Below are positions 3,435-20,837 of a stretch of 41,725 nt of DNA, piece by piece. Origin of the DNA: Pseudomonadota bacterium. GTDB lineage: Bacteria; Pseudomonadota; Alphaproteobacteria; SP197. A program made the position numbers and the translations under genes. Every line of letters begins with the position of its first letter. Within the stretch, counting starts at the first letter, position 1. The notes under the pieces are model-generated. The model ran no database searches. It was not told the DNA's origin and worked only from the letters and a program-made list of their open reading frames with translations. The DNA is taken from positions 1 to 41,725 of the forward strand of contig JBCCIS010000045.1 in the NCBI GenBank assembly GCA_039028155.1. The letters run 5' to 3'.

Positions 3435-3698
3435 ATCAAGCTAATCTGTGATGGCCGTACAGGTGTCATGTCCAATGGGTCGGAATGCGCAGTACTCTGC
3501 GGGTTTCATGTGATCGACGTGGGCCTTTGGGCCCATGTCCCGACAGTGCTGCGCAGATTTGTGCGGCCGGTCACTCTCATTGCGGGCAAAATGATCCAAT
3601 CTGATCCAGGGACAAGATGACCAAGGGGACGTGGGGGCTAAAAGGCAGCGGCGCGACGCGCCATGTCGGGCCCGCCGCGGCGAAGCAGGAGACTGGTA

Positions 3699-4178
3699 AT
3701 GTCGTTTGGACGACGCGAACGAGACGACAGAAGGCGCGAACCGCGCCGCGAGGTATTAAGCCAGGCGGCGATCTATTTTGGCGAGACGTCGCAACGCGCG
3801 ACCGGCCTGGTCCGCAACATATCGCGCACCGGCGCTAACTTCTTCGTCGACTTTCCTCTGGATCTGCCGCGCGACGTCGTCCTGCAGTTCTGCAACGGCG
3901 ATGAGTTCGACTGCGAGGTCGTGCGTGATGTCGGGGGCACCGAGTTCGGCCTGCACTTCAAGGACACGAACGAGTTCGAGAAATCGCAGACCAAGGACTG
4001 CGTCGACTCCGTGCACAGCTTCACCAAGAGCCAGTCGCCGCGCGAGCTCTATCAGCTGATGGAAAAGGTCGGTTTCTTCGGTGACGAGGAAATCGAGTCG
4101 ATCATGAAGGGCTTCATCGCTTCCTATGATCAGGTCGTGAAAATCTACAGCGACCGCATTCTGCCGGAGCAGTCCTAG
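3699..4178 (+). CDS. PilZ-domain protein A (159 residues)
   Basis: I chose ATG 3699 because AGGAGA (3687-3692) lies 6 nt upstream and because the paralogue at 5543 then aligns from residue 1 without gaps. The PilZ signature is present: an arginine cluster R11-R17 (RxxxR) and N40-I-S42-R-T-G45 (the D/NxSxxG motif), which together bind cyclic di-GMP in this family. The beta-barrel runs to about residue 88 (TEFGLHF). Residues 95-159 are a helical extension with FGDEEIES at 127-134 and a DRILP tail, shared only with the paralogue in this window. It is a likely soluble c-di-GMP effector; the partner is unknown. A strong terminator follows about 100 nt downstream. Confidence 0.88.
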   Translation: MSFGRRERDDRRREPRREVLSQAAIYFGETSQRATGLVRNISRTGANFFVDFPLDLPRDVVLQFCNGDEFDCEVVRDVGGTEFGLHFKDTNEFEKSQTKDCVDSVHSFTKSQSPRELYQLMEKVGFFGDEEIESIMKGFIASYDQVVKIYSDRILPEQS

Positions 4179-5259: not shown

Positions 5260-5542
5260 AACGTCACCACGTTGGGTTAACGATCCCCAACGGGTTTGCA
5301 TACTCCCGCCGGTTCGACAGTGTTTTGCGTGCCGTTGACGTATCGAAAGGTGTATCCTTTTCAGCGTAGCGGCCGTAACCCACTGTGGCGGCGTTTTTCG
5401 CGCGTTCAGCGCCTAAGCGCATGATTTGACAGGCGGAATACGCTTGGGTGTGGACAATTCGGTATGATGCCACCAATTCTCGGTGGTGAGGAGCCGAGCT
5501 GCAGGACACCCTAGATGGGCTTGTGAGCCAGGAGTATGTGTC

Positions 5543-6022
5543 GTGACGTTTGGACAACGTGAGAGTTTTAACCGCCGAACCGACGAGCGCCGCAAATCAC
5601 TGAAACGCGCGGATCTCGTATTCAACAACCGCGCCTCAAGCGTGAGCGGGCTGGTCAGGAACATTTCTGACAACGGCGCCAAGTTTGTCATCGAAGCGCC
5701 GGTCGACATTCCCGATCGGGTCTCGCTGCGCTTCAGCAATGGCGAGGAGTTTCAGTGCGACGTCGTTTGGAAAAGCAGCGGCACTGAGTTCGGCCTGAAA
5801 TTCTGCGACGGCATCGAGTTCGATCTCTCCAAGACCAAGCAGGGCCTGAACGCGATCTACCAGATGGCCCGCAATCTCTCGCCGACGGAGATCCTCAAGC
5901 TCATGGAAACAGCCGAGTACTTCGGCGACGAGGAGATCGAGAGCGCGGTCAAGGCGTATGTCGACGCCTATAACGACATGGTCGGTGTGCTCCACGACAG
6001 GATCCTGCCCAAACAGCATTAG
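5543..6022 (+). CDS. PilZ-domain protein B (159 residues, paralogue of A)
   Basis: GTG 5543 is chosen because AGGAG (5530-5534) sits 8 nt upstream and the N-terminus VTFGQRESFNRR then matches MSFGRRERDDRR of protein A. The two proteins have exactly the same length and align with no gap; I count 70 of 159 identical positions. Key PilZ positions are kept (R12, R16, N40, S42, G45), as is the C-terminal FGDEEIES helix and DRILP end. A local duplication is likely, with about 1.4 kb of unrelated sequence between the copies. A role as a cyclic di-GMP effector is family knowledge; the output is unknown. Confidence 0.87.
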   Translation: MTFGQRESFNRRTDERRKSLKRADLVFNNRASSVSGLVRNISDNGAKFVIEAPVDIPDRVSLRFSNGEEFQCDVVWKSSGTEFGLKFCDGIEFDLSKTKQGLNAIYQMARNLSPTEILKLMETAEYFGDEEIESAVKAYVDAYNDMVGVLHDRILPKQH

Positions 6023-6993: not shown

Positions 6994-7368
6994 ATGCCTG
7001 AGGATACGGAACCAACACTCGACACGTCAGTTCTGGAGGAGATTCATCGCTCCACCAGCGAAGGTGATTTTATCGAACTGATCAGCGAGTTTGTGGAAGC
7101 GGTCGAGCGGCTTGCCGGCGAAGTCGCGGCCGCCCAAAAGGCTGTCGACATCGATCGCCTGGAACGGGCCGCGCATGAAATGGCCGGTATGGTGACGACA
7201 TTCGGCGCCATGCGCCTGGGTAAGGCGGCGCGCAGCATCATGCTGGACTGTCGCGGTGACGAGACTGATCGGGCCCTGGCGCAGACGTCCGAGCTTCACG
7301 GCATGATTGATGAGGCGCTGGCCGCTCTCAGCGAGCGGTTTCCAGGCGTGGTGGTCAGCAAGGCTTGA
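6994..7368 (+). CDS. Histidine phosphotransfer (Hpt) protein
   Basis: 124 residues, almost entirely helical. The segment RAAHEMAGMVTTFGAMRL places H61 in the HxxxG context of Hpt domains, although the usual lysine (HxxKG) is alanine here. Hpt proteins shuttle phosphoryl groups between a hybrid kinase receiver and a final response regulator. The convergent gene 20 bases downstream encodes a hybrid kinase whose terminal receiver lacks its own Hpt domain, so this is its likely partner. No strong Shine-Dalgarno precedes the ATG. Confidence 0.82.
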   Translation: MPEDTEPTLDTSVLEEIHRSTSEGDFIELISEFVEAVERLAGEVAAAQKAVDIDRLERAAHEMAGMVTTFGAMRLGKAARSIMLDCRGDETDRALAQTSELHGMIDEALAALSERFPGVVVSKA

Positions 7369-7388: not shown

Positions 7389-10300
7389 CTATTGGGTGTT
7401 GGGCCGGTTGTGCTCGCTTGCCGGTTGGGGCGGCAGCCAACGCGCGATGGCCGCCAACAACTCCGGCTTCCGCACCGGTTTGGCTAGATGGTCGGACATG
7501 CCGGCCTCCAGATAACGCGCTCTGTCGCCCCGCAGCGCATCGGCTGTCAGCGCGATAATCGGGATATCGGCGAAGCTGTTGCCCAGGCGGCGCATCCGCC
7601 GGGTCGCTTCGATACCATCCATTTCCGGCATGCTGGAATCCATCAAGACGAGGTCGTAGGGCTGCTTGCGTGCGGCATCCAGCGCTTCCAGGCCGTTATT
7701 GGCGATATCGACGCGATAACCGGCTGATTCGAGAATCTTGACCGTCACCATTTGGTTGACCCGGTTGTCTTCGGCCAACAGGAGGCGGCGTCCCTTGCCG
7801 GGCTGTGCGGTGTCGCTTGCCTTGGCTTGTGATCGCGCTTGTTTGGTGGCGGCACTGTCGGTGCCCAGAATGGCGGGAACCAAATCGCGCTGATGAACGG
7901 GTACCTGGACAAAGCCATCGGCGCCGTCTTGCGACGAGACGTTGACGCCGATGGGCACCGCGCTGACGAGCCGAGCGCTGTCATGATCCGTCATGGCGCT
8001 GACGCGCCGCACCTCGCCGGCGACGTCGGCGTTGGCGGCAAGGTGACCGATCAGGATGGCGCTGTGGCCGCTACCTCCCATACCGATCTTGTCGACGGTC
8101 CCGGACCGCGCCACGTCGACGCTGGCGCCTGCCGTTCCGAGCTGGCGTTTGATCAGCGCACTGCCGACGTCGGTGTCGTCAATCAGCAGCACCTGCCACT
8201 CGGCAAGTGGCTTGTCCTTTGGTGATGAAGCGCCAGCGACCGTGTCGAACTTGGCGGTGAACCAGAACGTCGAACCTTTCTGTGGCGTCGAATCAAAACC
8301 GATATCGCCGTGCATCATACTGACCAGGCGTTGCGATATCGCCAACCCCAGCCCGGTACCGCCGCGCGAGCGTCCGGAGGACGGATCGATTTGGGTGAAC
8401 ATGTCGAACAGGCGTTCGCGCGCGTCATCGGGAATACCGATGCCGGTGTCGGCGACGGTAAACCGCAGCATGCGGCTAGCGCCATCGCCGCCATTGCAGG
8501 TCGACACATCCACGGTTACGCCGCCACTCTCGGTGAACTTTAGCGCGTTGCCGAGCAGGTTGAGCAGGATTTGACGAACCCTGCCCGCATCACCCGACAG
8601 CATCGCCGGGACGTCGGCGGCGACATGCGCGCCGATCACCAGGTCTTTTGCCGATGCGATGGGATAGAGCAGGTCAATGACGCTGGTGACCGTATCCTCC
8701 AGCTCGAACGCGGCAATCTCCAAATCCATCTTGCCGGCTTCGATCTTGGACAGGTCGAGGATGTCGTTGATGATCGTCAGCAGCGCTTCGGCCGACTGGC
8801 GCATGTTGCTGACGTAACGCGCGTGTTCGCGGTCGAGGTCGGCCTCCGATAACAAGTTCGCCATGCCCAGAATACCATTCATGGGCGTGCGGATTTCGTG
8901 GCTCATGGTCGCCAGGAAACGCGACTTCGCGTCATTCGCCGCCTCGGCCTGCTCTTTCAAATCGCGCAATGTCTGCTCGATCTGCTTGCGTGCGGTTATG
9001 TCCTGGATGGTCGAGATCTCCCGGTTTGTTCGCCGGCCGTCCTGCTCCAGGCGATGCACGACCTCGTTCACATAACAAACTTGCCCGTCGGGACGGATCA
9101 TCCGGTATTCGATGTCGAGGGGCTTACCGGTTGCTTCACCGCGTCGATAGGCTGCGGCCACATAGTCGCGATCGTCGGGATGTACATACAGACGAAGTTC
9201 GTCCTCCCACGGTAGCAGCATGTCTTCGCGCTCGACGCCGACGATTTCGGCGGCGACATCGGAGCAGTCCACCGCCCGGTCGAGGTCGAGGTCGTAGATC
9301 ACATGGCCGACCCGTGCGACGCTTTGCGCGACGGCCAGAACCGTCCGTTGTTCCTCAAGGTCCCGCTGGGTCCGACGGATATCGGTCAGGTCGAGAACCG
9401 CGCCGATGCCTCGCTGCGCGGTCTCACCGTCGCCAGCGATCGTCTCGCCCATTTCACGAACCCACCTGACCTCGCCGTTGGGTCTGACGATGCGATACTC
9501 CAGGTCATAGGGTTCGCGCGACACCTGCGCAGCTTCGATAACGTCCTTCGCGTGGTCGCGGTCGTCGGGATGGGCAAGCGAATACTCGGTGCCGTCGTAA
9601 GAAAGCAATTCGTCTTCGGACCGACCGTAAATCTCGGCGAACTCTGGCGACACGTGAACGAAGCGGTTCGCGACGTCATCGAAGACGAACGTGCCCATCT
9701 GGGCGATGCGCTGGGCCGTCGCCAGTATCATGGCCGTCTCTCGAAGCTGTTCAGCCGCTTCGCGATCCCGTGTCACGTCGATGACCGCGCTGACGATGCG
9801 CGCCGGTTTGCCCGGACCGGCATCCAGAACCGCGCTGATATCGCGAACGTGAACGTGGCGCCCATCCTTGCAGATCAGCCGATACTCGACCTCGCCCTGG
9901 GAGCCCTCTGCGACAATTCGGTCAAATGTCCGCATGACGTCGTCGACATCGTCTTCATGCACGACCGTCGCGAAACCCTTTCCGAAGGCGTTGAGTTCGT
10001 CGACCGTATAACCGGCTATCTCCATCATGCTCTTCGACACATACGTAAAGCGGTCGCTTTCGAGGTCGTAAACGTAGTGGCCGAAACGGGCCACTTGCTG
10101 CGCAAAGGCCAAGGTAAGGCGGTTGTCTTGCAGCTCCTGTTCGGCGACGCGAATGTCGGTCAAGTCGATTAGGGTACCGATCGATCGCGCCGTCGCCTGA
10201 CCGTCTTTGATGACGTATTCGCCGGATTCGCGAACGTGGCGCACCTCGCCGTCGGGACGAAGAAGGCGGAACTCGATCGTATAGGGGCGCCGTTCGTCGG

Positions 10301-11204
10301 CGGCGGCTTGAAACTCGAGGGTGACAGCGTTGCGATCGTCGGGATGCACGAGCGACATGGTGTGTTGCCACGGTGCCATGGCTTCGTCCGGTGAAACACC
10401 GGCGATGTCGACATAGGCGTCTGAGCATGACACGACGCGGTCAAGATCGTCATCGTAGACGTAGTGACCGAACCGGGCGATGCGCTGCGCTGTTGCCAGA
10501 ACGGTTTGGTTTTCACTCAGCGCCGCTTCGCGCTCCTGAAAATCCGTGATGTCCATGATGGAGCCGATCGAACGGTCGGTTGTTTTGCCGTCGCGCGTCA
10601 GATAGCGGCTGGACTCACGCACATAACGAACCGTCCCGTCGGGATGAACGACGCGAAAGTCGATGTTGTAGGGCTCACGGGTCTCGACGAACCGCTCGAA
10701 CACCTTGTCCATCCGGTCGCGATCGTCGGGGTGTACGAAGGACAGGTCGTCGTCCCATGCTAGCGGCAGGGTTTCGCGCGTGTAGCCATGGATCTTGGCG
10801 AACTCGTCGGATACTTCTTCGTAGCGCTCCGTCTTTTCGTTGAATGTGTAGTAACCGACGCCGGCAAGCTCGGCGGCGTCTTGGAGCAGCGCGTTGGCCT
10901 CGGCGAGCCGGCGCTTGTCCGCATAATGAATGTCGAGACGGCGGGCCAGGATGATGACGACGGCGAAGGTCGCGATGGCCGCGAGCAGGGCGGCGACGTC
11001 GCCGGCGATCATCCAGTCGAGCCAAACCGAAAGATTGGTCTGGAACTGGGATTGCAGCAGGTGGACAACGGACTGCAGCGTAACGAAGCCGATCAGCGCG
11101 AACAGCGCCGACGTCAGAAGGCTGCGGTGCCGCCACACGATAACGCCGGCCACCGCAAGGGAAGCGAGCAACAGGGCTGTGGAGACAATCAGAAAGCCGC
11201 TCAT
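7389..11204 (-). CDS. Membrane hybrid sensor histidine kinase with five PAS domains
   Basis: 1271 residues. Three membrane helices lie at about 4-24, 29-51 and 65-88, with no large periplasmic loop. Five PAS/PAC units follow at about 105-222, 231-352, 361-481, 491-611 and 621-739; equivalent residues recur every 129 positions. HisKA covers about 758-825 with phospho-acceptor H769 in FLATMSHEIRTPMNGI. The HATPase domain covers about 870-987 with N886, DTGIGIP and GGTGLGL. A pseudo-receiver (about 1003-1115) keeps the DD pair at 1009-1010 but reads ILIGH where the aspartate should be. A canonical receiver (about 1138-1257) has E1145, D1146, D1189 and K1242. It probably passes phosphate to the adjacent Hpt protein. 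The signal is unknown; the PAS units show no obvious haem-binding motif. Confidence 0.95.
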   Translation of the reverse strand: MSGFLIVSTALLLASLAVAGVIVWRHRSLLTSALFALIGFVTLQSVVHLLQSQFQTNLSVWLDWMIAGDVAALLAAIATFAVVIILARRLDIHYADKRRLAEANALLQDAAELAGVGYYTFNEKTERYEEVSDEFAKIHGYTRETLPLAWDDDLSFVHPDDRDRMDKVFERFVETREPYNIDFRVVHPDGTVRYVRESSRYLTRDGKTTDRSIGSIMDITDFQEREAALSENQTVLATAQRIARFGHYVYDDDLDRVVSCSDAYVDIAGVSPDEAMAPWQHTMSLVHPDDRNAVTLEFQAAADERRPYTIEFRLLRPDGEVRHVRESGEYVIKDGQATARSIGTLIDLTDIRVAEQELQDNRLTLAFAQQVARFGHYVYDLESDRFTYVSKSMMEIAGYTVDELNAFGKGFATVVHEDDVDDVMRTFDRIVAEGSQGEVEYRLICKDGRHVHVRDISAVLDAGPGKPARIVSAVIDVTRDREAAEQLRETAMILATAQRIAQMGTFVFDDVANRFVHVSPEFAEIYGRSEDELLSYDGTEYSLAHPDDRDHAKDVIEAAQVSREPYDLEYRIVRPNGEVRWVREMGETIAGDGETAQRGIGAVLDLTDIRRTQRDLEEQRTVLAVAQSVARVGHVIYDLDLDRAVDCSDVAAEIVGVEREDMLLPWEDELRLYVHPDDRDYVAAAYRRGEATGKPLDIEYRMIRPDGQVCYVNEVVHRLEQDGRRTNREISTIQDITARKQIEQTLRDLKEQAEAANDAKSRFLATMSHEIRTPMNGILGMANLLSEADLDREHARYVSNMRQSAEALLTIINDILDLSKIEAGKMDLEIAAFELEDTVTSVIDLLYPIASAKDLVIGAHVAADVPAMLSGDAGRVRQILLNLLGNALKFTESGGVTVDVSTCNGGDGASRMLRFTVADTGIGIPDDARERLFDMFTQIDPSSGRSRGGTGLGLAISQRLVSMMHGDIGFDSTPQKGSTFWFTAKFDTVAGASSPKDKPLAEWQVLLIDDTDVGSALIKRQLGTAGASVDVARSGTVDKIGMGGSGHSAILIGHLAANADVAGEVRRVSAMTDHDSARLVSAVPIGVNVSSQDGADGFVQVPVHQRDLVPAILGTDSAATKQARSQAKASDTAQPGKGRRLLLAEDNRVNQMVTVKILESAGYRVDIANNGLEALDAARKQPYDLVLMDSSMPEMDGIEATRRMRRLGNSFADIPIIALTADALRGDRARYLEAGMSDHLAKPVRKPELLAAIARWLPPQPASEHNRPNTQ

Positions 11205-11644: not shown

Positions 11645-11658
11645 TTGACTCAGGTCAA
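11645..11658 (+). promoter_or_regulatory. FNR box upstream of hemerythrin-FNT operon
   Basis: TTGACTCAGGTCAA has perfect TTGAC/GTCAA half sites with the 4-base spacing of FNR/FixK boxes. Its centre is 11651.5. A CATGCT hexamer (11682-11687) lies about 33 bases downstream, the spacing expected for a class II site at -41.5, giving a start near 11693. The local regulator FnrL keeps the E-x-x-S-R recognition helix that reads TTGA. Confidence 0.82.
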
Positions 11659-11716
11659 TGCGCCGACCGCCGCGCCGGCGTCATGCTTTCCGGGCAAGAC
11701 GGTAGGGGGACATCAG

Positions 11717-12274
11717 ATGGTCCGAACCACCGACAAACTGGCCCCCAGCCCCGAAGGGCTTGGCGTGCTGCGGATATCGGATCCCATAGAATTTCTATAT
11801 GGCGAGCATGACCGCCAACTGGTGATCTGTGCGGCCTTGGATCACTTGGCCTCCGAGCCGGGGGCACCAGACGCGCGCGAAACCGCCGAACTTATTCTCA
11901 ACTATGCCGATATCGACATGCCGCTTCATTTGCGTGATGAGGAAGAAGACCTGTTTCCACGCCTTCTGGAGCGCTGCGAGCCCGAGGACGGCCTTGAGAA
12001 CCTTGTTGATCAGCTTGAACACGAGCATGAGACCGACAGTGTGCTCTACCAGCGCTTCAAGGACGCTCTTCACGCCATCGCGAACGGTCGCCTTCTTGAC
12101 CATGCCGACGTGTTCAAGAGCGATGCGGAAGCGTTTGCCACGCTGCAGCGACGCCATCTCAACTGGGAAAACGGCACGGTCTTGCCCCTGGCGCGTCAGC
12201 GGCTGACCCCGGAGGATCTGGAGGAGATGCGGGTCTCCATGGCCGCGCGACGCCACGGGACAACGGTCGACTGA
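11717..12274 (+). CDS. Hemerythrin-like (HHE) di-iron protein
   Basis: Start ATG 11717 follows AGGGGGA (11704-11710); 185 residues. The histidine/acidic pattern of bacterial hemerythrins is visible: H31 in LYGEHDRQ, H71 and E75-E76 in PLHLRDEEEDLFP, H102/H104 in LEHEHE, and H147 with E151 in RRHLNWEN. It is a four-helix bundle expected to bind O2, NO or iron through a di-iron site. It is the first gene behind an FNR box and its stop is one base from the FNT start, so the two form an operon induced at low oxygen. Oxygen or NO sensing/detoxification is the likely role; a repair-type RIC function cannot be excluded. Confidence 0.85.
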   Translation: MVRTTDKLAPSPEGLGVLRISDPIEFLYGEHDRQLVICAALDHLASEPGAPDARETAELILNYADIDMPLHLRDEEEDLFPRLLERCEPEDGLENLVDQLEHEHETDSVLYQRFKDALHAIANGRLLDHADVFKSDAEAFATLQRRHLNWENGTVLPLARQRLTPEDLEEMRVSMAARRHGTTVD

Positions 12275-12275
12275 C

Positions 12276-13202
12276 ATGAAAGAGGGCGGTCAACCCGACC
12301 GGGCGCCAAAGGCGGCCGTGACACTCGACGCCCTGCTGCCGTCCGCCATCGCCCGAAAGGCCGAGGACGTCGGCGTTGCCAAGGCGGGCATGGACGCCCT
12401 GTCGCTGCTGGTTTTGGCGATTCTGGCCGGCGCCTTTATCGGTCTGGGGGCCATGGCAGCCACCATCATGTGGACCGGTGTCGCGCCGGATCTATCGTTC
12501 GGCGTTGCGCGGATGCTGGGTGGCCTCGTCTTCGCGCTGGGCCTCATCCTGGTGGTCTTGGGCGGCGCGGAGCTTTTCACCGGCAACAATCTGATGGTGA
12601 TCGCGGCGGCCAGCCGCCGGATCGGCCTTGGCGCCCTGCTTCGCGCATGGACGATCGTCTTTATCGGCAACATGATCGGCGCCATCGGGACGGCCGTTCT
12701 GGTGTTCCTGGCCGGTCAGCACACGCTGGCCGACGGCGGTGTCGGCCAGACCATGCTGGCGATCGGCAACGCCAAGGCTGAACTGCCGTTCGCCCAGGCC
12801 TTCTTTCTGGGCATTCTGTGCAACGTGCTGGTCTGCTTGGCGGTCTGGCTGTGCTACGGCGCCCATACGACGACCGACAAGCTGCTGGCGATCCTGTTTC
12901 CGATCGCCGCATTCGTCGCGGCGGGTTTCGAGCATTCGGTCGCCAACATGTACTTCATCCCGCTCGCCATGATCGTCAAAACCGTTGCTGGGGATGCCTT
13001 TTGGGCCCAGATCGGCGCGGCACCGGACGCCTTTCCCGCTGTCTCCGTGGTCGGGCTGATGCGCAACCTGGTACCGGTCACCCTTGGAAACATCCTGGGC
13101 GGCGGGGTCCTGGTCGGGTTGGTCTACTGGTTCGTCTATCTCAGACGTGCAGGGCCGGTTGATTCAGATCAATGCTGCATCTGCGAACGAACCGGAAAAT
13201 GA
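12276..13202 (+). CDS. Formate/nitrite transporter (FNT) family channel
   Basis: 308 residues with six predicted membrane helices between about 40 and 290. Family features include the first-helix AGAFIGLGAMA, the GGAELFTGNNL segment after helix 2, LGILCNVLVCLAVW in the middle, and GFEHSVANMYFIPLA near helix 5, which carries the FNT central histidine. The family moves formate, nitrite or hydrosulfide. FNR control and a hemerythrin partner favour nitrite or formate under micro-oxic conditions, but no formate lyase or nitrite reductase gene is in the window. The last codons overlap the FNR box of the cco operon. Confidence 0.93.
   Translation: MKEGGQPDRAPKAAVTLDALLPSAIARKAEDVGVAKAGMDALSLLVLAILAGAFIGLGAMAATIMWTGVAPDLSFGVARMLGGLVFALGLILVVLGGAELFTGNNLMVIAAASRRIGLGALLRAWTIVFIGNMIGAIGTAVLVFLAGQHTLADGGVGQTMLAIGNAKAELPFAQAFFLGILCNVLVCLAVWLCYGAHTTTDKLLAILFPIAAFVAAGFEHSVANMYFIPLAMIVKTVAGDAFWAQIGAAPDAFPAVSVVGLMRNLVPVTLGNILGGGVLVGLVYWFVYLRRAGPVDSDQCCICERTGK
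13159..13172 (+). promoter_or_regulatory. FNR box of the cco operon, inside the FNT gene
   Basis: TTGATTCAGATCAA is a perfect TTGAT-N4-ATCAA FNR site. It lies within the last 15 codons of the FNT reading frame. Its centre is 13165.5; the -10 position 32 bases on is a weak GAAAAT (13195-13200), predicting a start near 13207 and a leader of about 78 nt before ccoN. Confidence 0.85.
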
Positions 13203-13284
13203 CAGCCGAATCCTGACGAGGCGGCCATTTCTGGGAAGGCCGGCCAACAACATGGCGTGTCAATTCCGCTGGGGGGAATGACGA

Positions 13285-14766
13285 ATGGCCGAGACAGCGC
13301 TGGCCGGCGATACCGCCGTTTCCAAAGACACCGTGACCTATAACGATGCGGTCATACGCCGGTTCGCCATCGCGACCATGGTCTGGGGTGTCGTGGCGTT
13401 TCTGGCAGGCGTCTACATCGCGCTGCAATTGGCGTTTCCGATTTTCAACCTGGATCTGCCGTGGACGACCTTCGGACGGCTCAGGCCGGTCCATACCTCC
13501 GCCGCGATCTTTGCCTTCGGTGGTAACGCGCTCTTCGCCACGTCGCTCTACTGCGTGCAGCGGACCTGCCGGACATCACTGTTCGGCGGCGCGCACGCGG
13601 GCAATTTCCTGTTCTGGGGCTACAACTTCTTCATCGTCATCGCGGCCTGGGGCTACGTCACCGGCGTGACGCAAAGCCGCGAGTACGCCGAACCCGAATG
13701 GATGGCGGATCTGTGGCTGACCGTGGTTTGGGTCGTCTACCTGGTTGTCTTTGTCGGCACGATCATGAAGCGGCGCGAGCCGCACATTTATGTCGCCAAC
13801 TGGTTCTTCCTGGCCTTCATCGTCACCGTGGCGATGTTGCACATCGTCAACAACCTGGCGATCCCCGTCGACTGGACGGGTGCGAAGAGCTATTCGCTGT
13901 TCTCTGGCGTCCAGGACGCGCTGACCCAGTGGTGGTACGCCCATAACGCGGTGGGCTTTTTCCTGACCGCGGGCTTCCTGGGCATCATGTACTACTTCGT
14001 GCCCAAGCAGGCGGAGCGGCCGGTCTATTCCTACCGGCTCTCCATCGTTCACTTTTGGTCGCTGATCTTCCTCTATATCTGGGCCGGGCCCCATCACCTG
14101 CATTACACGTCGCTGCCCGACTGGGCGCAGACGCTGGGCATGACGTTCTCAGTGATGCTGTGGATGCCGTCATGGGGCGGCATGATCAACGGCATCATGA
14201 CGCTGTCGGGCGCGTGGTACAAACTCAGGACCGATCCGGTTCTGCGCATGATGGTGGTCTCGATCGGCTTCTACGGTATGTCGACTTTCGAGGGCCCGGT
14301 CATGTCGATCAAGGCGGTCAATGCCTTGAGCCACTACACCGACTGGACCATCGGCCACGTGCATTCCGGCGCGCTGGGTTGGGTCGCCTATATCAGCTTC
14401 GGCGCGATCTACTATCTGTTTCCGAAACTGTGGGGGCGCGAGCGACTCTATTCGCTGAAGCTGGTGAACTGGCACTTCTGGATTTCGACCGTCGGCATCC
14501 TGCTTTACATCATCGCGATGTGGATCTCCGGCATCATGCAGGGCCTGATGTGGCGGACCTACGATACGCTGGGTTTCCTTCAGTACTCTTTCGTCGAAAC
14601 CGTCGTCGCCATGCACCCGTTCTATGTCGTGCGCGCGATGGGCGGCGCCCTGTTCCTGATCGGTGCATTGATCATGGTTTACAATCTGTGGCGCACGGTG
14701 CGCGGTGACGTTCGTGATGAAGCGGTCGCCAGACCGCCGCAAGCCGCCACGCAGCCGGCGGAATAG
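13285..14766 (+). CDS. ccoN: cbb3-type cytochrome c oxidase subunit I
   Basis: 493 residues, about 12 membrane helices. Haem and CuB ligands are visible: [15 protein letters not shown] near residue 72, [11 protein letters not shown] near 220, [10 protein letters not shown] near 270, and [14 protein letters not shown] near 355. The tyrosine of [13 protein letters not shown] is the helix VII residue that cross-links to histidine in cbb3 enzymes. It reduces O2 to water with high affinity and pumps protons. First gene of ccoNOQP, with GGGGGGA before the ATG and an FNR box upstream. Confidence 0.98.
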
Positions 14767-14777
14767 GGGACGGAACC

Positions 14778-15512
14778 ATGGCCTCGTTCATCAAACATGA
14801 CCGCATCGAACGCAACGTCACGCTGATGATGGTTCTGACCCTGATCACCGTTGCCATCGGCGGCCTGGTGGAGATCGTGCCGCTCTATGTGGTCGACACG
14901 ACGATCGAGCGTGTCGAAGGCGTTAGACCCTATTCGCCCTTGGAGCAGCGCGGCCGCGACATCTACATCCGCGAAGGCTGCTATGTCTGCCATAGCCAGC
15001 AGATCCGCCCGTTCCGCGACGAGGTCGAGCGTTATGGCCACTACAGCCTGGCGGCCGAGAGCATGTATGACCATCCGTTCCAGTGGGGCTCCAAGCGCAC
15101 GGGCCCGGACCTGGCGCGGGTCGGTGGCAAATTCTCCAACGAATGGCACGTCGCGCATTTCCTGAACCCGCGCGAGATCGTGCCGGAATCGATCATGCCG
15201 GGTTATGCGTTCCTCGCCGATCGCAAGTTGGAGACTGAGGATATCGTCGCGCGTTTGGATGCGCTGATCGCGGTCGGCGTGCCTTATGACGAGATGATGG
15301 TCGAGAACGCTTATGCCGATCTGGTGGCCCAGGCCGACCCCGATGCGGATCACAGCGGTCTTCTGGAGCGTTACCCCAACGCCATGGTCGGTGATTTCGA
15401 CGGCAATGATCGTGAGCTCACCGAGCTCGACGCACTGATTGCGTACATGCAGATCCTCGGCCGCATGGTCGACTTCGCCGACATCGATGCCGGCGATGTG
15501 GTGCAGCAATAG
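14778..15512 (+). CDS. ccoO: cbb3-type oxidase subunit II (monohaem cytochrome c)
   Basis: 244 residues. One N-terminal membrane anchor (about 13-38) is followed by a periplasmic domain with a single CxxCH haem site, CYVCH at residues 68-72, in the CcoO context [21 protein letters not shown]. The distal methionine is probably in the PESIMPGY segment. It passes electrons from CcoP to CcoN. It starts 11 bases after ccoN behind GGACGGA. Confidence 0.97.
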
Positions 15513-15520
15513 GTGCTGTG

Positions 15521-15682
15521 ATGTCGCTCCAGGAAATCTCGGATATCGCGCGTGAACTCTGGGTCGTTTGGCTGATCGTGCTGTTCGTCGGCATCATCAT
15601 TTGGGCCTACCGGCCGCGCAGCAAAAAGAGTTTTGAGGAACAGGGCAAGATCCCGTTCAAAGACGACAACGGGGAGGCTTGA
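15521..15682 (+). CDS. ccoQ: cbb3-type oxidase subunit IV / CcoQ
   Basis: 53 residues, beginning MSLQEISDIARELWVVWLIV, with one membrane helix at about 13-29 and a basic/acidic cytoplasmic tail (YRPRSKKSFEEQGKIPFKDD). Size, composition and position between ccoO and ccoP identify it. CcoQ stabilises the complex. The next start lies four bases after its stop. Confidence 0.95.
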   Translation: MSLQEISDIARELWVVWLIVLFVGIIIWAYRPRSKKSFEEQGKIPFKDDNGEA

Positions 15683-15686
15683 GCCG

Positions 15687-16538
15687 ATGCCGACCAAGAT
15701 CGAAAAGGATGCTGTCACCGGCCAGGATACGACCGGCCACGAATGGGACGGCATCAAGGAACTGAACAACCCGTTGCCGAAGTGGTGGCTCTACATTCTG
15801 TGGGCGACCGTCATCTGGTCGATCGGCTATTACTTCTGGTCGTCGCCGATCCCCGGTGTCGAAGGTTTTCAGGAACCGGCGCGCGAGCGTTTGGAACAGA
15901 CCATGGCGACGGCGCGGGAACAGCAGTCTGTATTCTTGGAGAAGATTGCGGCGGCTCAGCTCGAAGAAATTCGTGACGATCCCGAACTCTTGAACTTCGC
16001 CATGGCCGGCGGCGGTTCGGCGTTCGCCGACAACTGCGCGCCCTGCCACGGTCAAGGCGGCGCCGGCGCGCCGGGTTTCCCGACGCTGGCCGACGACGCC
16101 TGGATCTGGGGCGGAACGCTCGAGGCGATCCATGAGACGATCCTGCACGGCGTCAGAACCGACGACATCCAGTCGCGCTACTCCGAGATGATGGCGTTCG
16201 GCGACGGCATCCTGGACCGGTCCCAGGTCTCCGATGTCGCCGACTACGTGCTGTCGCTGAGCGGACAGTCTGTCGACCGCGATGCCGCGGCGCGTGGTGA
16301 GGTGCTGTTCGAAGAAAACTGTGTTGCCTGCCATGCCGAGGGCGGGGTCGGCGATATGGAACAGGGCGCGCCTGCGCTCAACAACCAAGTCTGGCTCTAT
16401 GGTGGCACGAAAGCCGATATCGAAGCCCAGATCTGGCGGCCGCAGCACGGCGTGATGCCGGGATGGGTCGATCGCTTGGACCCGGAGACCATCAAAATGC
16501 TGACGGTCTATGTGCACACGCTGGGCGGCGGCCAGTAG
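15687..16538 (+). CDS. ccoP: cbb3-type oxidase subunit III (dihaem cytochrome c)
   Basis: I set the start at ATG 15687, 9 nt after GGGGAGG; 283 residues. The N-terminus has ELNNPLPKWWLYILWATVIW, the typical CcoP membrane anchor (about 33-52). Two cytochrome c sites follow: CAPCH at 117-121 and CVACH at 212-216. It accepts electrons from the bc1 complex or soluble cytochrome c and feeds CcoO. Confidence 0.97.
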   Translation: MPTKIEKDAVTGQDTTGHEWDGIKELNNPLPKWWLYILWATVIWSIGYYFWSSPIPGVEGFQEPARERLEQTMATAREQQSVFLEKIAAAQLEEIRDDPELLNFAMAGGGSAFADNCAPCHGQGGAGAPGFPTLADDAWIWGGTLEAIHETILHGVRTDDIQSRYSEMMAFGDGILDRSQVSDVADYVLSLSGQSVDRDAAARGEVLFEENCVACHAEGGVGDMEQGAPALNNQVWLYGGTKADIEAQIWRPQHGVMPGWVDRLDPETIKMLTVYVHTLGGGQ

Positions 16539-16575
16539 GACAGTACGGTAAGGCGATACAACAAGACGATAGACC

Positions 16576-16608
16576 ACGGTCGCGCGCCGCTAAGAAGCGC
16601 GTCACCGT
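16576..16608. other. Imperfect hairpin between ccoP and ccoG
   Basis: ACGGTCGCGCGC (16576-16587) pairs with GCGCGTCACCGT (16597-16608) with two mismatches and a 9-base loop. It lies in the 105-base gap separating the structural genes from the assembly genes and could attenuate or protect the ccoNOQP message. There is no U-tract. Confidence 0.4.
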
Positions 16609-16643
16609 AACAACAACAGGACGCGAGGTCACAGTAAGGCGCC

Positions 16644-18101
16644 ATGGTTGATATCTATGGCAACGCGGACGCCCAATCGCGCCAAGAACAAAAGCATGAG
16701 AGCCTCTACCAGAACCGGGTCAAGGTGTACCCGAAGAAGGTGGCGGGCACGTTCCGGCGCTTGAAATGGACGGTTCTCATCGTCCTGCTGGGCATCTACT
16801 ACATCGCGCCGTGGATCCGCTGGGATCGCGGACCGAACGCCCCCGATCAGGCGTTTCTGATCGATATGCCGCACCGGCGTGCCTACTTCCTGTGGATCGA
16901 GATCTGGCCGCAGGAAATCTATTACCTCGCCGGCATTCTCCTGTTGGGCGCCGTCGGCCTGATTTTCGTGACCAGTCTGTTCGGCCGCGTGTGGTGCGGC
17001 TACACCTGTCCGCAGACGGTCTGGACCGATCTCTTCATGTGGGTCGAACGCCTGATCGAAGGCGACCGTACCAAACGCATGCGGTTCGACAAGGCGCCGG
17101 CGTCGTCCTCAAAACTCACGAAGAAGGCCGCCAAGCACGGTGTCTGGCTGATCATTGCCGCGCTGACCGGTGGCGCTTGGATCATGTACTTCAACGACGC
17201 GCCGACCGTCGTGGTGAACATCCTGACCGGCCAGGCCTCACTCAAGGTGTACGGCTTCTTCGCGCTGTTCACGGCGACGACCTATCTGTTGGCCGGCTGG
17301 GCGCGCGAACAGGTCTGCGTCTACATGTGCCCGTGGCCGCGTTTCCAATCCGCCATGTTCGACGAGGACACGATGATCGTGACCTACGAGAGCTGGCGCG
17401 GCGAGCCACGCGGCAAGCACAAGAAGGGCACCAGCTGGGAAGGCCGCGGACACTGCGTCGACTGCAAACAATGCGTCGCCGCCTGTCCGACCGGTATCGA
17501 TATCCGCGACGGCGTTCAGCTTGAGTGCATCGGCTGCGCGCTTTGTATTGATGCCTGCAACGAAATCATGGGTCGCCTTGATCTGCCCAGGGGCCTGATC
17601 AGCTATGACACCGACCGCAACCTCGCCAACAAGGCCGAAGGTAAGCCGCTGAGATACCGGCTGATCCGCCCACGGACCATTATCTACTCTGTCCTGCTGG
17701 TTGTCGTCGCCACGGTCATGGTCTGGAGTCTGGCGACCCGTGCGCAGGTCGACATCAATGTCCTGCACGACCGCAACCCGCTCTTTGTAACGCTATCGGA
17801 TGGCAGCATCCGCAACGGCTATACGATCAAAATCCTCAACATGACGCGCGAGGAGAAGGCTTACAAACTCGCGTTCGAGGGATTGGGGTATGCCGAGATG
17901 ACCGTTGTCGGCCAAGAGGACTCGGCAAGTCAGAACATTGCCCGCCTGACCGCCGGTTCCGACACGGTCGCGACCTATCGTGTTTTCATGGTCGTCCCGG
18001 CGGACCTGGTTCAAGGTGAGGTTCAAGACTTCAACTTCGTGCTGACCGAACTTCAGTCATCCGAAACGGTGCGGCGTGGCACTGTCTTTAGAGGGCCCTG
18101 A
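16644..18101 (+). CDS. ccoG: cbb3 oxidase assembly protein CcoG (FixG), Fe-S membrane protein
   Basis: 485 residues. Membrane helices occur near 38-55, 88-110, 165-185, 200-218 and 345-365. Cysteine motifs include WCGYTCPQTVW, CVYMCPWPRF, and a double 4Fe-4S ferredoxin set CVDCKQCVAACPTG and CIGCALCIDACNE. The C-terminus is an immunoglobulin-like periplasmic domain. CcoG is thought to reduce copper for cbb3 maturation. First of the ccoGHIS block; its stop is followed one base later by ccoH. Confidence 0.96.
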   Translation: MVDIYGNADAQSRQEQKHESLYQNRVKVYPKKVAGTFRRLKWTVLIVLLGIYYIAPWIRWDRGPNAPDQAFLIDMPHRRAYFLWIEIWPQEIYYLAGILLLGAVGLIFVTSLFGRVWCGYTCPQTVWTDLFMWVERLIEGDRTKRMRFDKAPASSSKLTKKAAKHGVWLIIAALTGGAWIMYFNDAPTVVVNILTGQASLKVYGFFALFTATTYLLAGWAREQVCVYMCPWPRFQSAMFDEDTMIVTYESWRGEPRGKHKKGTSWEGRGHCVDCKQCVAACPTGIDIRDGVQLECIGCALCIDACNEIMGRLDLPRGLISYDTDRNLANKAEGKPLRYRLIRPRTIIYSVLLVVVATVMVWSLATRAQVDINVLHDRNPLFVTLSDGSIRNGYTIKILNMTREEKAYKLAFEGLGYAEMTVVGQEDSASQNIARLTAGSDTVATYRVFMVVPADLVQGEVQDFNFVLTELQSSETVRRGTVFRGP

Positions 18102-18102
18102 G

Positions 18103-18597
18103 ATGATGGGTGCAAAAGCCTGGTTGATGCGCGGCGACCGATGGATTCCCGGTCTGATCGTGCTGGGCTTTGTCGTTGTCGTCATCGCCAACGGCACGAT
18201 GATCTGGATCGCGTTGGGTACATGGACCGGCCTGACCACGGGCGAGTCCTATAACCGGGGTCTGGCCTATAACGAGACGATCGCCCAGGTCGAGGCACGC
18301 GACGCGCTGGGGTGGACGGTTGACATCGCGACGAACACGACCGCCGACGGTCATGAGGCCGAGCTTGTCCTTGCCGACGCCAACGGCGCACCGATCGACG
18401 GTGCGGTCATCGTCGGCAGGTTCGTCCGACCGACCCATGAAGGCTACGACTTCGACGTCAGCTTCAGTCAAGTTGGCGCCGGGCGCTATCGCACGACGTT
18501 TCTGGCGCCGCTCTCTGGTCAATGGGATCTACGGTTCGAGATCGCAAAGGGTGGCGACATCTATCGCGCGGCCGAGCGGTTGCGGTTATCGCCATGA
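18103..18597 (+). CDS. ccoH: cbb3 oxidase assembly protein CcoH (FixH)
   Basis: 164 residues from ATG 18103 (a second ATG follows directly). One N-terminal membrane helix lies at about 15-40, then a periplasmic beta domain with the FixH features SYNRGLAYNETIAQV and a C-terminal GQWDLRFEIAKGGDIYRA. It is needed for a stable cbb3 complex. It overlaps ccoI by ATGA. Confidence 0.93.
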   Translation: MMGAKAWLMRGDRWIPGLIVLGFVVVVIANGTMIWIALGTWTGLTTGESYNRGLAYNETIAQVEARDALGWTVDIATNTTADGHEAELVLADANGAPIDGAVIVGRFVRPTHEGYDFDVSFSQVGAGRYRTTFLAPLSGQWDLRFEIAKGGDIYRAAERLRLSP

Positions 18598-20837
18598 GCG
18601 ACGTCGTCCACCTGAAGCCCGCCTCGTCGGCCGCGTCCGCGAATGTGGCCAACGACGCGGACGCGGTGGATTGCACGGACTTCATTCAAGACGCCGGTGA
18701 CGGCGGCCACCGCCTGCATCTTCTGGTCGAGGGCGCCCATTGCGGTGGCTGTGTGCGCAAGATCGAGGGCGCGCTCGCCGGGTTTGACGACGTCACCGAA
18801 GCACGCATGAACCTCAGCACCCGGCGCCTTGCCGTCGGCTGGCATGGCCAGGCCGCGCGCGCCAACACGTTTGCCCGCGCGGTCGCCGGGCTTGGCTTTC
18901 GCGTCATGCCCTACGATCCGATATCCGCGTCCGGAGCCTACGAACAAGACGGGCGCATGTTACTGCGCTGCATGGCGGTTGCCGGTTTTGCCGCCGCCAA
19001 CGTTATGCTGCTTTCGGTCTCCATCTGGTCGGGTCATGTGGAGGGCATGACTTCGGCGACGCGCGACCTGTTCCATTGGCTCTCGGCGCTTATCGCGCTG
19101 CCGGCCGTTGTTTATGCCGGGCGTCCGTTCTTCCGCTCCGCCATCGCGGCGTTGCGCAATCGACGCGCCAACATGGACGTGCCGATCTCGCTCGCTGTCA
19201 TCCTGGCGTCGGCCATGAGTTTAGCCGAGACCATGCGCGGCGCCGATCACGCCTATTTTGATTCAGCGGTCATGCTGCTGTTCTTCCTGCTGGTCGGCCG
19301 CTATCTCGATCACCGCGCGCGCGGCAAGGTGCGGTTTGCCGCCGAGCGACTTTTGGCCCTGGGCCAAGCGCCGGTGACGGTCATCAACCCGGACGGCACG
19401 CGCCAAGCCCGCCACCCCGCCAATGTTGACCTGGGCCAACATGTCCTGGTTGCGACCGGCGAACGCGTGGCGGTCGATGGCCAAGTCGTCGCCGGCGATG
19501 GCGAACTGGATACCAGTCTCATAACCGGCGAGACGATGCCGCGGCATATCCATGCCGGTGACGTCGTCCATGCCGGCATGCTGAACCTGGGCGCACCGTT
19601 GACGCTCGTTGTCAGCGCGACCGGCGAAGGCACGGTACTTGCCGACATCGTGCGGTTGATGGAAGCCGCTGAGCAGCGGCGCGCGGGGTATGTCGCACTC
19701 GCTGACCGGGTTGCGCGCTTCTATGCTCCTGTTGTTCATGGCTTGGCCGCCGGTGCCTTCTTCGGCTGGTTCGTGCTCGGCGGCATGGCCTGGCAGGATG
19801 CGCTGATGATCGCCATAGCGGTCCTGATTGTTACCTGCCCGTGCGCCCTGGGGCTCGCCGTGCCGGCGGTTCAGGTTATCGCCAGCGGACGGCTGATGCG
19901 CGGTGGCATCCTGCTGAAATCGGCGACCGCGCTGGAGCGCTTCGCCACGATCGACACGGTCGTGTTCGACAAGACGGGTACCTTGACCCAGGGCGAACCG
20001 GACCTGATCAACCGCGATGCCATCGCTGCCGCCGATCTGACGCTTGCCGCCTCGATCGCCGCGGCCAGCCGCCACCCCCTCGCCCGCGCCTTGGTTCGCG
20101 CGGCGCCGGTTGCGCCGCTGGCCGAGGATGTCAGGGAGGTGCCGGGTTCGGGTCTTGTCATGGTCCGAGACGGGGCCGAGGTGAAGCTCGGCAATCGCCC
20201 GTGGTGCGGCATCGAAACGAACAAGCAGGACGATCTGGACGGTCCGGAGTTGTGGCTCAGGCACGCCGACGGGACCACGGTTCGGTTCGCGTTCTCCGAT
20301 CGATTACGCGACGGCGCCCGCGACGTGGTCGCCGTGCTCAAGCGAAAGGGCCTGGCCGTCGAACTCCTGTCCGGCGATCGTGCCGGCGCTGTCGAAGCGG
20401 CCGCAACCGTTGCCGGCATCGAACACTGGCGCGCGGAGTGCCGGCCTGATGATAAGTGTGAGCGGCTGGCTGAGCTCGAACGGCAGGGACGGCGTGTGCT
20501 GATGGTTGGCGACGGATTGAACGATGCGCCGGCGCTTGCCGCGGCCCATGTCTCATTATCGCCAAGCAGCGCGGCGGACATCAGCCAGACCGCGGCCGAT
20601 GCGGTGTTCCAGGGCGGCCGGTTGGATGCGGTCTTGACCGTGTTGGACGTGGCCCGCCGCGCCAACCGGTTGGTGCGCCAGAACTTCGTCATGGCTGCCG
20701 GCTACAACATCATCACCGTGCCGCTCGCCATCATGGGTTTTGTGACACCCCTGGTCGCCGCGGCGGCGATGTCCAGTTCGTCCATTATCGTGGTTGGCAA
20801 CGCGCTGCGCCTTGCCGGCCGCAGAAAGCGGTTGTGA
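18594..20837 (+). CDS. ccoI: Copper-translocating P1B-type ATPase CcoI (FixI)
   Basis: I start it at ATG 18594, overlapping the ccoH stop; 747 residues. An N-terminal heavy-metal domain has C50 and C53 (AHCGGC, lacking the usual methionine). The ion-binding CPC motif is at 415-417 and the phosphorylated aspartate at 459 in DKTGTLT. A conserved ASRHPLA (HP motif) and GDGLNDAPAL hinge follow. It exports Cu(I) toward the periplasm for CuB of CcoN rather than for resistance, as judged from its place in ccoGHIS. Confidence 0.96.
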   Translation: MSDVVHLKPASSAASANVANDADAVDCTDFIQDAGDGGHRLHLLVEGAHCGGCVRKIEGALAGFDDVTEARMNLSTRRLAVGWHGQAARANTFARAVAGLGFRVMPYDPISASGAYEQDGRMLLRCMAVAGFAAANVMLLSVSIWSGHVEGMTSATRDLFHWLSALIALPAVVYAGRPFFRSAIAALRNRRANMDVPISLAVILASAMSLAETMRGADHAYFDSAVMLLFFLLVGRYLDHRARGKVRFAAERLLALGQAPVTVINPDGTRQARHPANVDLGQHVLVATGERVAVDGQVVAGDGELDTSLITGETMPRHIHAGDVVHAGMLNLGAPLTLVVSATGEGTVLADIVRLMEAAEQRRAGYVALADRVARFYAPVVHGLAAGAFFGWFVLGGMAWQDALMIAIAVLIVTCPCALGLAVPAVQVIASGRLMRGGILLKSATALERFATIDTVVFDKTGTLTQGEPDLINRDAIAAADLTLAASIAAASRHPLARALVRAAPVAPLAEDVREVPGSGLVMVRDGAEVKLGNRPWCGIETNKQDDLDGPELWLRHADGTTVRFAFSDRLRDGARDVVAVLKRKGLAVELLSGDRAGAVEAAATVAGIEHWRAECRPDDKCERLAELERQGRRVLMVGDGLNDAPALAAAHVSLSPSSAADISQTAADAVFQGGRLDAVLTVLDVARRANRLVRQNFVMAAGYNIITVPLAIMGFVTPLVAAAAMSSSSIIVVGNALRLAGRRKRL

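Follow-up and report, generated by a model that had tools for sequence, protein, structure and literature searches.

Organization of the kinase locus

We analyzed a stretch of 41,725 nucleotides from a bacterium of the Alphaproteobacteria (GTDB lineage SP197; GenBank assembly GCA_039028155.1, contig JBCCIS010000045.1, positions 1 to 41,725 of the forward strand), hereafter the window. It contains a hybrid histidine kinase gene on the reverse strand (7389..11204, 1271 amino acids), in which Pfam detected five PAS_3 domains, HisKA, HATPase_c and Response_reg. An earlier note, made from the sequence alone, had described the PAS domains as repeating on an exact 129-residue period and had taken this period to reflect a constraint on their stacking. 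Here, we describe the array, its relatives and the quantity that appears to be conserved, namely the length of the linker that joins one PAS domain to the next.

The PAS_3 model (PF08447) matched the protein in five stretches and scored 283.3 bits over its full length (E = 5.7e-86), the curated cut-off being 25.6. Units 1 to 4 comprise residues 97-225 (10530..10916), 226-354 (10143..10529), 355-483 (9756..10142) and 484-612 (9369..9755), as delimited by self-comparison, Pfam and an alignment of the units. Unit 5, which carries one inserted residue, comprises residues 613-742 (8979..9368) according to the unit alignment and the alignment of relatives. These and all other kinase features given below lie on the reverse strand. 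The array is preceded by a hydrophobic N-terminal segment (residues 1-88, 10941..11204), a putative membrane anchor that was read from the translation and has no Pfam match listed.

Beyond the array, Pfam placed HisKA (DHp) at residues 759-824 (8733..8930), with the H-box His at H769, 34 residues beyond D735 of the last DIT motif, followed by HATPase_c at residues 871-986 (8247..8594) and a C-terminal receiver at residues 1142-1253 (7446..7781), whose expected phosphoacceptor is D1189 in VLMDSSMPEMDG. The protein thus has the parts of a hybrid histidine kinase, i.e., HisKA with an H-box, HATPase_c and a C-terminal receiver with its Asp, and the corresponding motifs are SHEIRTPMNG at 768, GGTGLGLAI at 948 and VLMDSSMPEMDG at 1186. 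A further, degenerate receiver (residues ~1002-1120, 7845..8201) was recognized by alignment to the middle domain of 6qrj. It has AILIGHLA at the site where the phosphoacceptor Asp is expected, and Pfam gives no receiver match there; the GHL of this motif is kept in both relatives aligned (2/2). When compared alone with solved structures, this domain returned chance matches only (E = 0.3 and 0.42).

The adjoining gene, which is tail-to-tail with the kinase (6994..7368, forward strand), codes for an HPt protein (Pfam Hpt, 2.3e-07). An HPt gene adjoins the kinase in 5/5 relatives as well, with the same tail-to-tail arrangement.

A PAS array with a 129-residue step

The landmark Leu recurs at positions 107, 236, 365, 494 and 623 of the kinase and the His of the H(P/E)DD motif at 158, 287, 416, 545 and 675, the motifs being HPDD, HPDD, HEDD, HPDD and HPDD in this order, with unit 3 as the HEDD variant. 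All landmark positions quoted in the earlier note proved correct, and unit 5 does carry an additional residue. The period itself was confirmed by comparing residues 95-745 with themselves without gaps: among 430 lags tried, positive scores were obtained only at 129, 258 and 387 (552, 449 and 324 BLOSUM62 units, respectively), and the next best lag per residue was 388, with a score of -53. At lag 129, 150/522 residues were identical, and the units were pairwise 27-44% identical. A MAFFT alignment of the five units contained one internal gap column, corresponding to Y673, just before the V-HPDD of unit 5 (the codon of the inserted residue is best placed at 9186..9188), and the alignment shows a gap at this position in all four relatives included from outside the genus. 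In the DNA, two five-copy motif families recurred at spacings of 387, 387, 387 and 390 bases in gene direction. Tandem Repeats Finder reported no repeat in this DNA, which suggests that the copies are much diverged.

Successive units are joined by linker helices, which we measured from the D of the DIT motif to the next landmark Leu. Each spans 18 steps: D218 to L236 (10497..10553), D347 to L365 (10110..10166), D476 to L494 (9723..9779) and D605 to L623 (9336..9392), as supported by linker measurement, the structural model and motifs.

Constant linkers and variable cores in relatives

Searches by family and by order yielded an identical set of 16 genomes, and some match to the PAS array was present in 10 of them. 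The kinase gene, whose presence was judged by the degenerate receiver and by long kinase matches in five relatives, occurs in 6/16 genomes (that of the window, G001, G003, G008, G012 and G013), and the degenerate receiver is confined to these six. G001 belongs to the same genus as the window, and its kinase is 90% identical over 1271 amino acids. A comparison of PAS number in orthologues, which the earlier note had proposed as a check, gave 3 to 5 domains across these genomes: five in the window and in G001, four in G003, G012 and G013, and three in G008.

The linker had the same length at all four junctions of the window and at 13/13 measurable junctions of the five relatives; variable linkers in orthologues, the outcome that the earlier note had set against its own proposal, were therefore not found. 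Similarly, the H-box His followed the last DIT at a distance of 34 in 6/6 family kinases. The cores behaved differently. Outside the genus, orthologous PAS cores differed in length from those of the window in 8/14 measurable cases, by -7 to +2 residues (in G003, G008, G012 and G013, unit 2 in 1/4, unit 3 in 2/2, unit 4 in 1/4 and unit 5 in 4/4), and spacings of 127, 128, 130 and 131 were seen there. Because window units 1 and 2 have equal cores, the choice of counterpart is immaterial for this count. None of the G001 cores differed from the window (0/5). Thus, the idea that the array has resisted length change since its formation had to be given up, both for the cores and for the number of domains (5, 5, 4, 4, 4 and 3). 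Since linkers are fixed while cores vary, the related suggestion that stacking geometry matters for signalling survives in part: geometry probably counts, but through the joining helix and not through the period.

Linkers and spacings in control proteins

For comparison, we used a control pool of 222 loci, made up of the best matches to the kinase or to the array. These included loci from a scan of genome contigs with the whole kinase (at least 80 loci, matched mainly in the kinase part and used for the control pool only), and 40 regions were picked by hand, mostly for long frames. Open frames of at least 250 amino acids were used (1393/1437 kept) and 15 near-copies were dropped; after removal of the kinase family and near-copies, 146 control proteins with a PAS core remained. 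The pool is not random and includes a few other proteins from the same bacterial family as the window. As it was chosen by similarity and partly by hand, its figures should be read as a guide. Spacings and linkers were counted with a PAS-core model that omits the linker.

Control linkers had the same length as those of the window at 185/225 junctions. The other 40 differed by -4 (15), -7 (6), +7 (6), +32 (3), -5 (2), +3 (2) and, in one case each, -15, +4, +11, +14, +18 and +39, and none of the 225 was off by one or two residues. Thirteen of the 40 deviant linkers were off by a multiple of 7, so that 198/225 were in heptad phase. A constant linker was also obtained with the first model (123/141) and by an alignment-free pattern search (29/34). 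Core lengths in the controls, on the other hand, ranged from 89 to 116 (361 cores). We see about an even chance that PAS-PAS junctions are quantised in length (185/225 at one length and the remainder mostly at -4, -7 or +7, 27/40) while cores drift freely. Such quantised junctions would allow whole PAS units to be gained or lost (3 to 5 here) with the helical register intact.

The linkers that are shorter by four residues (15/225; e.g., in L134, L056, L034 and L109) form a minority class, in which a different PAS type perhaps follows the linker.

The step size itself is ordinary, as steps of 126-130 dominate among the controls (121/191 adjacent junctions). The commonest control step was 128 (37/191), and 129 accounted for 18/191. 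A first table, in which 129 appeared to be the commonest step (40/150), included the kinase family and was rejected, since 128 leads without the family and near-copies. Perfect equality of spacings, however, is unusual among control arrays. In arrays with at least four units, identical spacings were found in 0/26 and a range of at most 1 in 1/26, and none of the nine control arrays that comprise at least four steps had four equal ones in succession. A looser table made earlier, with the family removed, gave equal spacings in 0/19 arrays and a range of at most 1 in 3/19; two of these three represent one array, present in the genome of the window (L093) and in a genus relative (L094), with steps of 129, 129 and 130, and neither is among the later 26. 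If steps were drawn from the control distribution independently of each other, four equal ones would arise with a probability of ~0.002, a figure that is not a clean test because the array was picked from a genome scan.

Origin of the PAS units

We built a first tree of 57 PAS units, consisting of the 25 units of the family's array and 32 control units chosen for E <1e-30. All 25 family units fell on one branch together with 3 PAS units of other proteins from the same bacterial family (99/98), and a single branch of family units was again obtained in a second tree (34 units). The trees support a common origin of the five units, which would fit in-frame duplication, and the divergence of the copies fits duplications that are old. 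The three outside units on the branch suggest that units also moved between genes, beside duplication. For the growth of the array by in-frame duplication of a 387-base unit, as the earlier note had it, shared origin is thus supported by the tree, whereas an original unit of 387 bp is not demonstrable at such divergence.

Within the family branch, units grouped by their position in the array (unit 5 with 100/99, unit 4 with 92/91 and unit 3 with 92/90 in the first tree), and the same groups were found with lower support in the second (85/98, 91/88 and 59/68, respectively). The tree tool warned of long branches for unit 3 in both trees. For units 1 and 2 the second tree gave no clear grouping, and a private duplication in the window's genus, with these units held together, had a P value of 0.377 in the approximately unbiased test (p-AU). 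Should these position groups hold, four or more units were already present before the genera of the family separated, G008 is without unit 3, and an additional N-terminal unit distinguishes the window's genus from the rest.

Paralogues in the window's own genome (G000) were considered as a recent source of units. There, the three matches that rank next were only 27-33% identical and covered part of the array, which argues against a recent donor.

Alternative explanations for the equal spacing

Similar tandem units within one gene, together with a unit number that varies in the kinase family, might point to ongoing recombination or gene conversion among units, which would keep the array similar. 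We consider this very unlikely, because window units 1-4 are most like the same-position unit in G001 (81-94% identity), unit 5 pairs with its G001 counterpart in the tree, units 3, 4 and 5 each cluster with their positional counterparts across the family in both trees, and no long DNA identity was found between units. Somewhat less remote, yet still improbable, is selection on the whole 129-residue period, imposed by a need of the PAS domains to stack with a constant repeat. It would agree with the range of 0 over four spacings, compared with 0/26 control arrays, and with the close relative G001, which at 90% identity keeps all five core lengths and the four linkers. However, the orthologues weaken this reading, as more than half of the measurable cores outside the genus differ (8/14, with spacings of 127, 128, 130 and 131) and PAS number ranges from 3 to 5 across the family; moreover, within the window itself, unit 5 exceeds the other units by one residue.

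It may equally well be that the period is unselected and that the four equal cores simply descend from a common unit and have stayed equal by chance, a possibility that we regard as evenly balanced. We compared core lengths in 484 control within-protein PAS pairs. Among pairs at 35-45% identity, 10/22 had an equal core and 91% differed by at most one residue, compared with 14-15% equal cores in pairs below 25% identity, and among the window's ten unit pairs, which are 27-44% identical, 6/10 were equal. Yet control pairs at 25-30% and 30-35% identity were equal in only 10/57 and 5/24 cases, respectively, and four window pairs are at 25-35% identity, so that equality in the window somewhat exceeds what the controls would lead one to expect. 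Inheritance and chance also leave the fixed linkers unexplained. Shared descent probably accounts for much of the equal spacing.

Predicted structure of the array

We modeled residues 88-830 as a monomer with AlphaFold2, using eight alignment rows. The model had a mean predicted local distance difference test score (pLDDT) of 78 and a predicted template modeling score (pTM) of 0.32. By our own reading of the listed elements, each unit shows the PAS order of strands and helices. One unbroken helix was predicted at each junction (model residues 133-156, 262-284, 391-413 and 520-543), with a last helix (model residues 650 to 699) that continues into DHp, and the starts of these helices were spaced by 129, 129, 129 and 130 residues. 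With this pTM, the placement of units relative to each other is uninterpretable, and the structure prediction that the earlier note had proposed as a check therefore says nothing on stacking. Foldseek matches to the model included LOV-PAS-HK, DosP, the tandem PAS of FixL (8js5), PpsR, MmoS and NifL.

A helical spine as a proposed mechanism

We think it likely that this protein is a membrane-anchored phosphorelay kinase with five PAS_3 domains, which arose by old duplications and in which phase-fixed linker helices form a coaxial spine. In this proposal, the D(I/L/V)T that ends each PAS domain would lead through a single helix straight into the next PAS domain and, after unit 5, into the dimerization helix of the kinase. 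In a dimer, the linker helices could form one coaxial spine, along which PAS domains may add or subtract twist and so set kinase activity. The 129-residue step would then combine a linker of fixed phase, 18 residues long when counted from the D of DIT to the next Leu, with a PAS core that happens to be equally long in units 1-4. The kinase is most likely the input of a phosphorelay via the adjoining HPt protein; phosphate would move from H769 to the last receiver (D1189), then to the HPt protein and to a response regulator. We infer the membrane anchor, the dimer spine, the twist mechanism and this phosphate route.

Several observations weigh against this explanation. The window array is more regular than any of the 26 control arrays, for which the linker rule alone is insufficient. 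A strict heptad rule does not account for 27/225 control linkers, which are out of phase with it and include the 15 that are four residues shorter. The model is of a monomer, with the low pTM given above and pLDDT of ~53-72 around the junctions, and a dimer and its spine are outside its reach. Finally, the gene is split in 2/5 relatives, by an in-frame stop in G012 and a frameshift in G013; these interruptions may represent assembly error or decay. The breaks lie at ~7441 of L120 and at ~6035-6172 of L122, either inside the counterpart of window unit 3 or immediately ahead of it.

The observation of a regular array is correct, and the array is neat, but the explanation now lies in linker phase, itself a known principle, and no longer in the period. 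The family amounts to a small natural experiment, in which orthologous kinases have 3, 4 or 5 PAS units with drifting cores and unchanging linkers. It separates the period from linker phase, which is impossible with a single protein, and favors helical register as the feature that is kept. How a kinase tolerates gain or loss of a whole sensor unit can also be studied on this family.

Comparison with known systems

Among solved chains, the kinase module and two receivers were closest to 6qrj_A, annotated as 'Hybrid kinase' (E = 9.5e-76), which we take to be ShkA. The likeness is to the ShkA-ShpA phosphorelay, which consists of a kinase, a degenerate REC1, REC2 and an HPt partner; in the window, the adjoining HPt protein gene may code for such a partner. 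The window kinase differs from ShkA by its five PAS domains and hydrophobic N-terminus, and the DDR linker motif of ShkA was not seen in its alignment to 6qrj. According to PMC7010744, Tyr Y338 of ShkA REC1 is needed for binding of cyclic di-GMP (c-di-GMP); in the window, a Phe aligns to Y338 (placed by our own numbering of 6qrj), and the ShkA-type Tyr is thus absent. The best NCBIfam matches of the kinase were BarA and TorS, with 395 bits each and the best stretches in the kinase part. These scores are far below the cut-offs of 890 and 676.5, respectively, and the kinase is not a member of either family.

A register constraint on PAS-PAS linkers is an already published principle. PMC3466315 describes heptad periodicity in tandem-PAS linkers and states that the phasing of the NifL PAS1-PAS2 linker matters, and PMC6798134 reports that YF1 depends on linker length in heptad steps and that tandem PAS domains are regularly spaced. 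Helical PAS extensions and fused linkers are described for PpsR in PMC3949515, and PMC1592074 notes that an S-helix can sit between PAS domains. When stated as a length that is fixed or changes in heptads, this rule describes 4/4 linkers in the window, 13/13 in relatives and 198/225 in controls. NifL PAS1-PAS2, FixL PAS-PAS and the engineered YF1/YHF resemble the window in that PAS folds sit on one post-DIT helix with constant phase. For FixL 8js5, the likeness is a fold match only, in which five listed chains covered about two model units with TM-scores of 0.60-0.73 by target length. Unlike NifL, FixL and YF1, the window has five consecutive units of the same type at equal steps, and no sign of haem, flavin or light sensing was seen in it.

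Neighboring genes

Past the kinase, genes for a hemerythrin-like protein, a FocA-like formate/nitrite transporter, ccoN, ccoO, ccoG and a copper P-type ATPase are located on the forward strand (11645-20837). The window shares with G001 and G003 the presence of formate/nitrite transporter and cbb3 oxidase genes next to the kinase. None was detected in G012 and G013 within the 15-16 kb read, and the G008 contig has a length of only 8.5 kb. As these neighbors occur in only part of the relatives, a link of the kinase to oxygen or redox sensing is only a guess.

Two genes for PilZ-domain proteins are also located close to the kinase (3663-4178 and 5483-6022, both on the forward strand) and might provide a c-di-GMP context. 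Each of them matches the G001 counterpart of the other at 44% identity.

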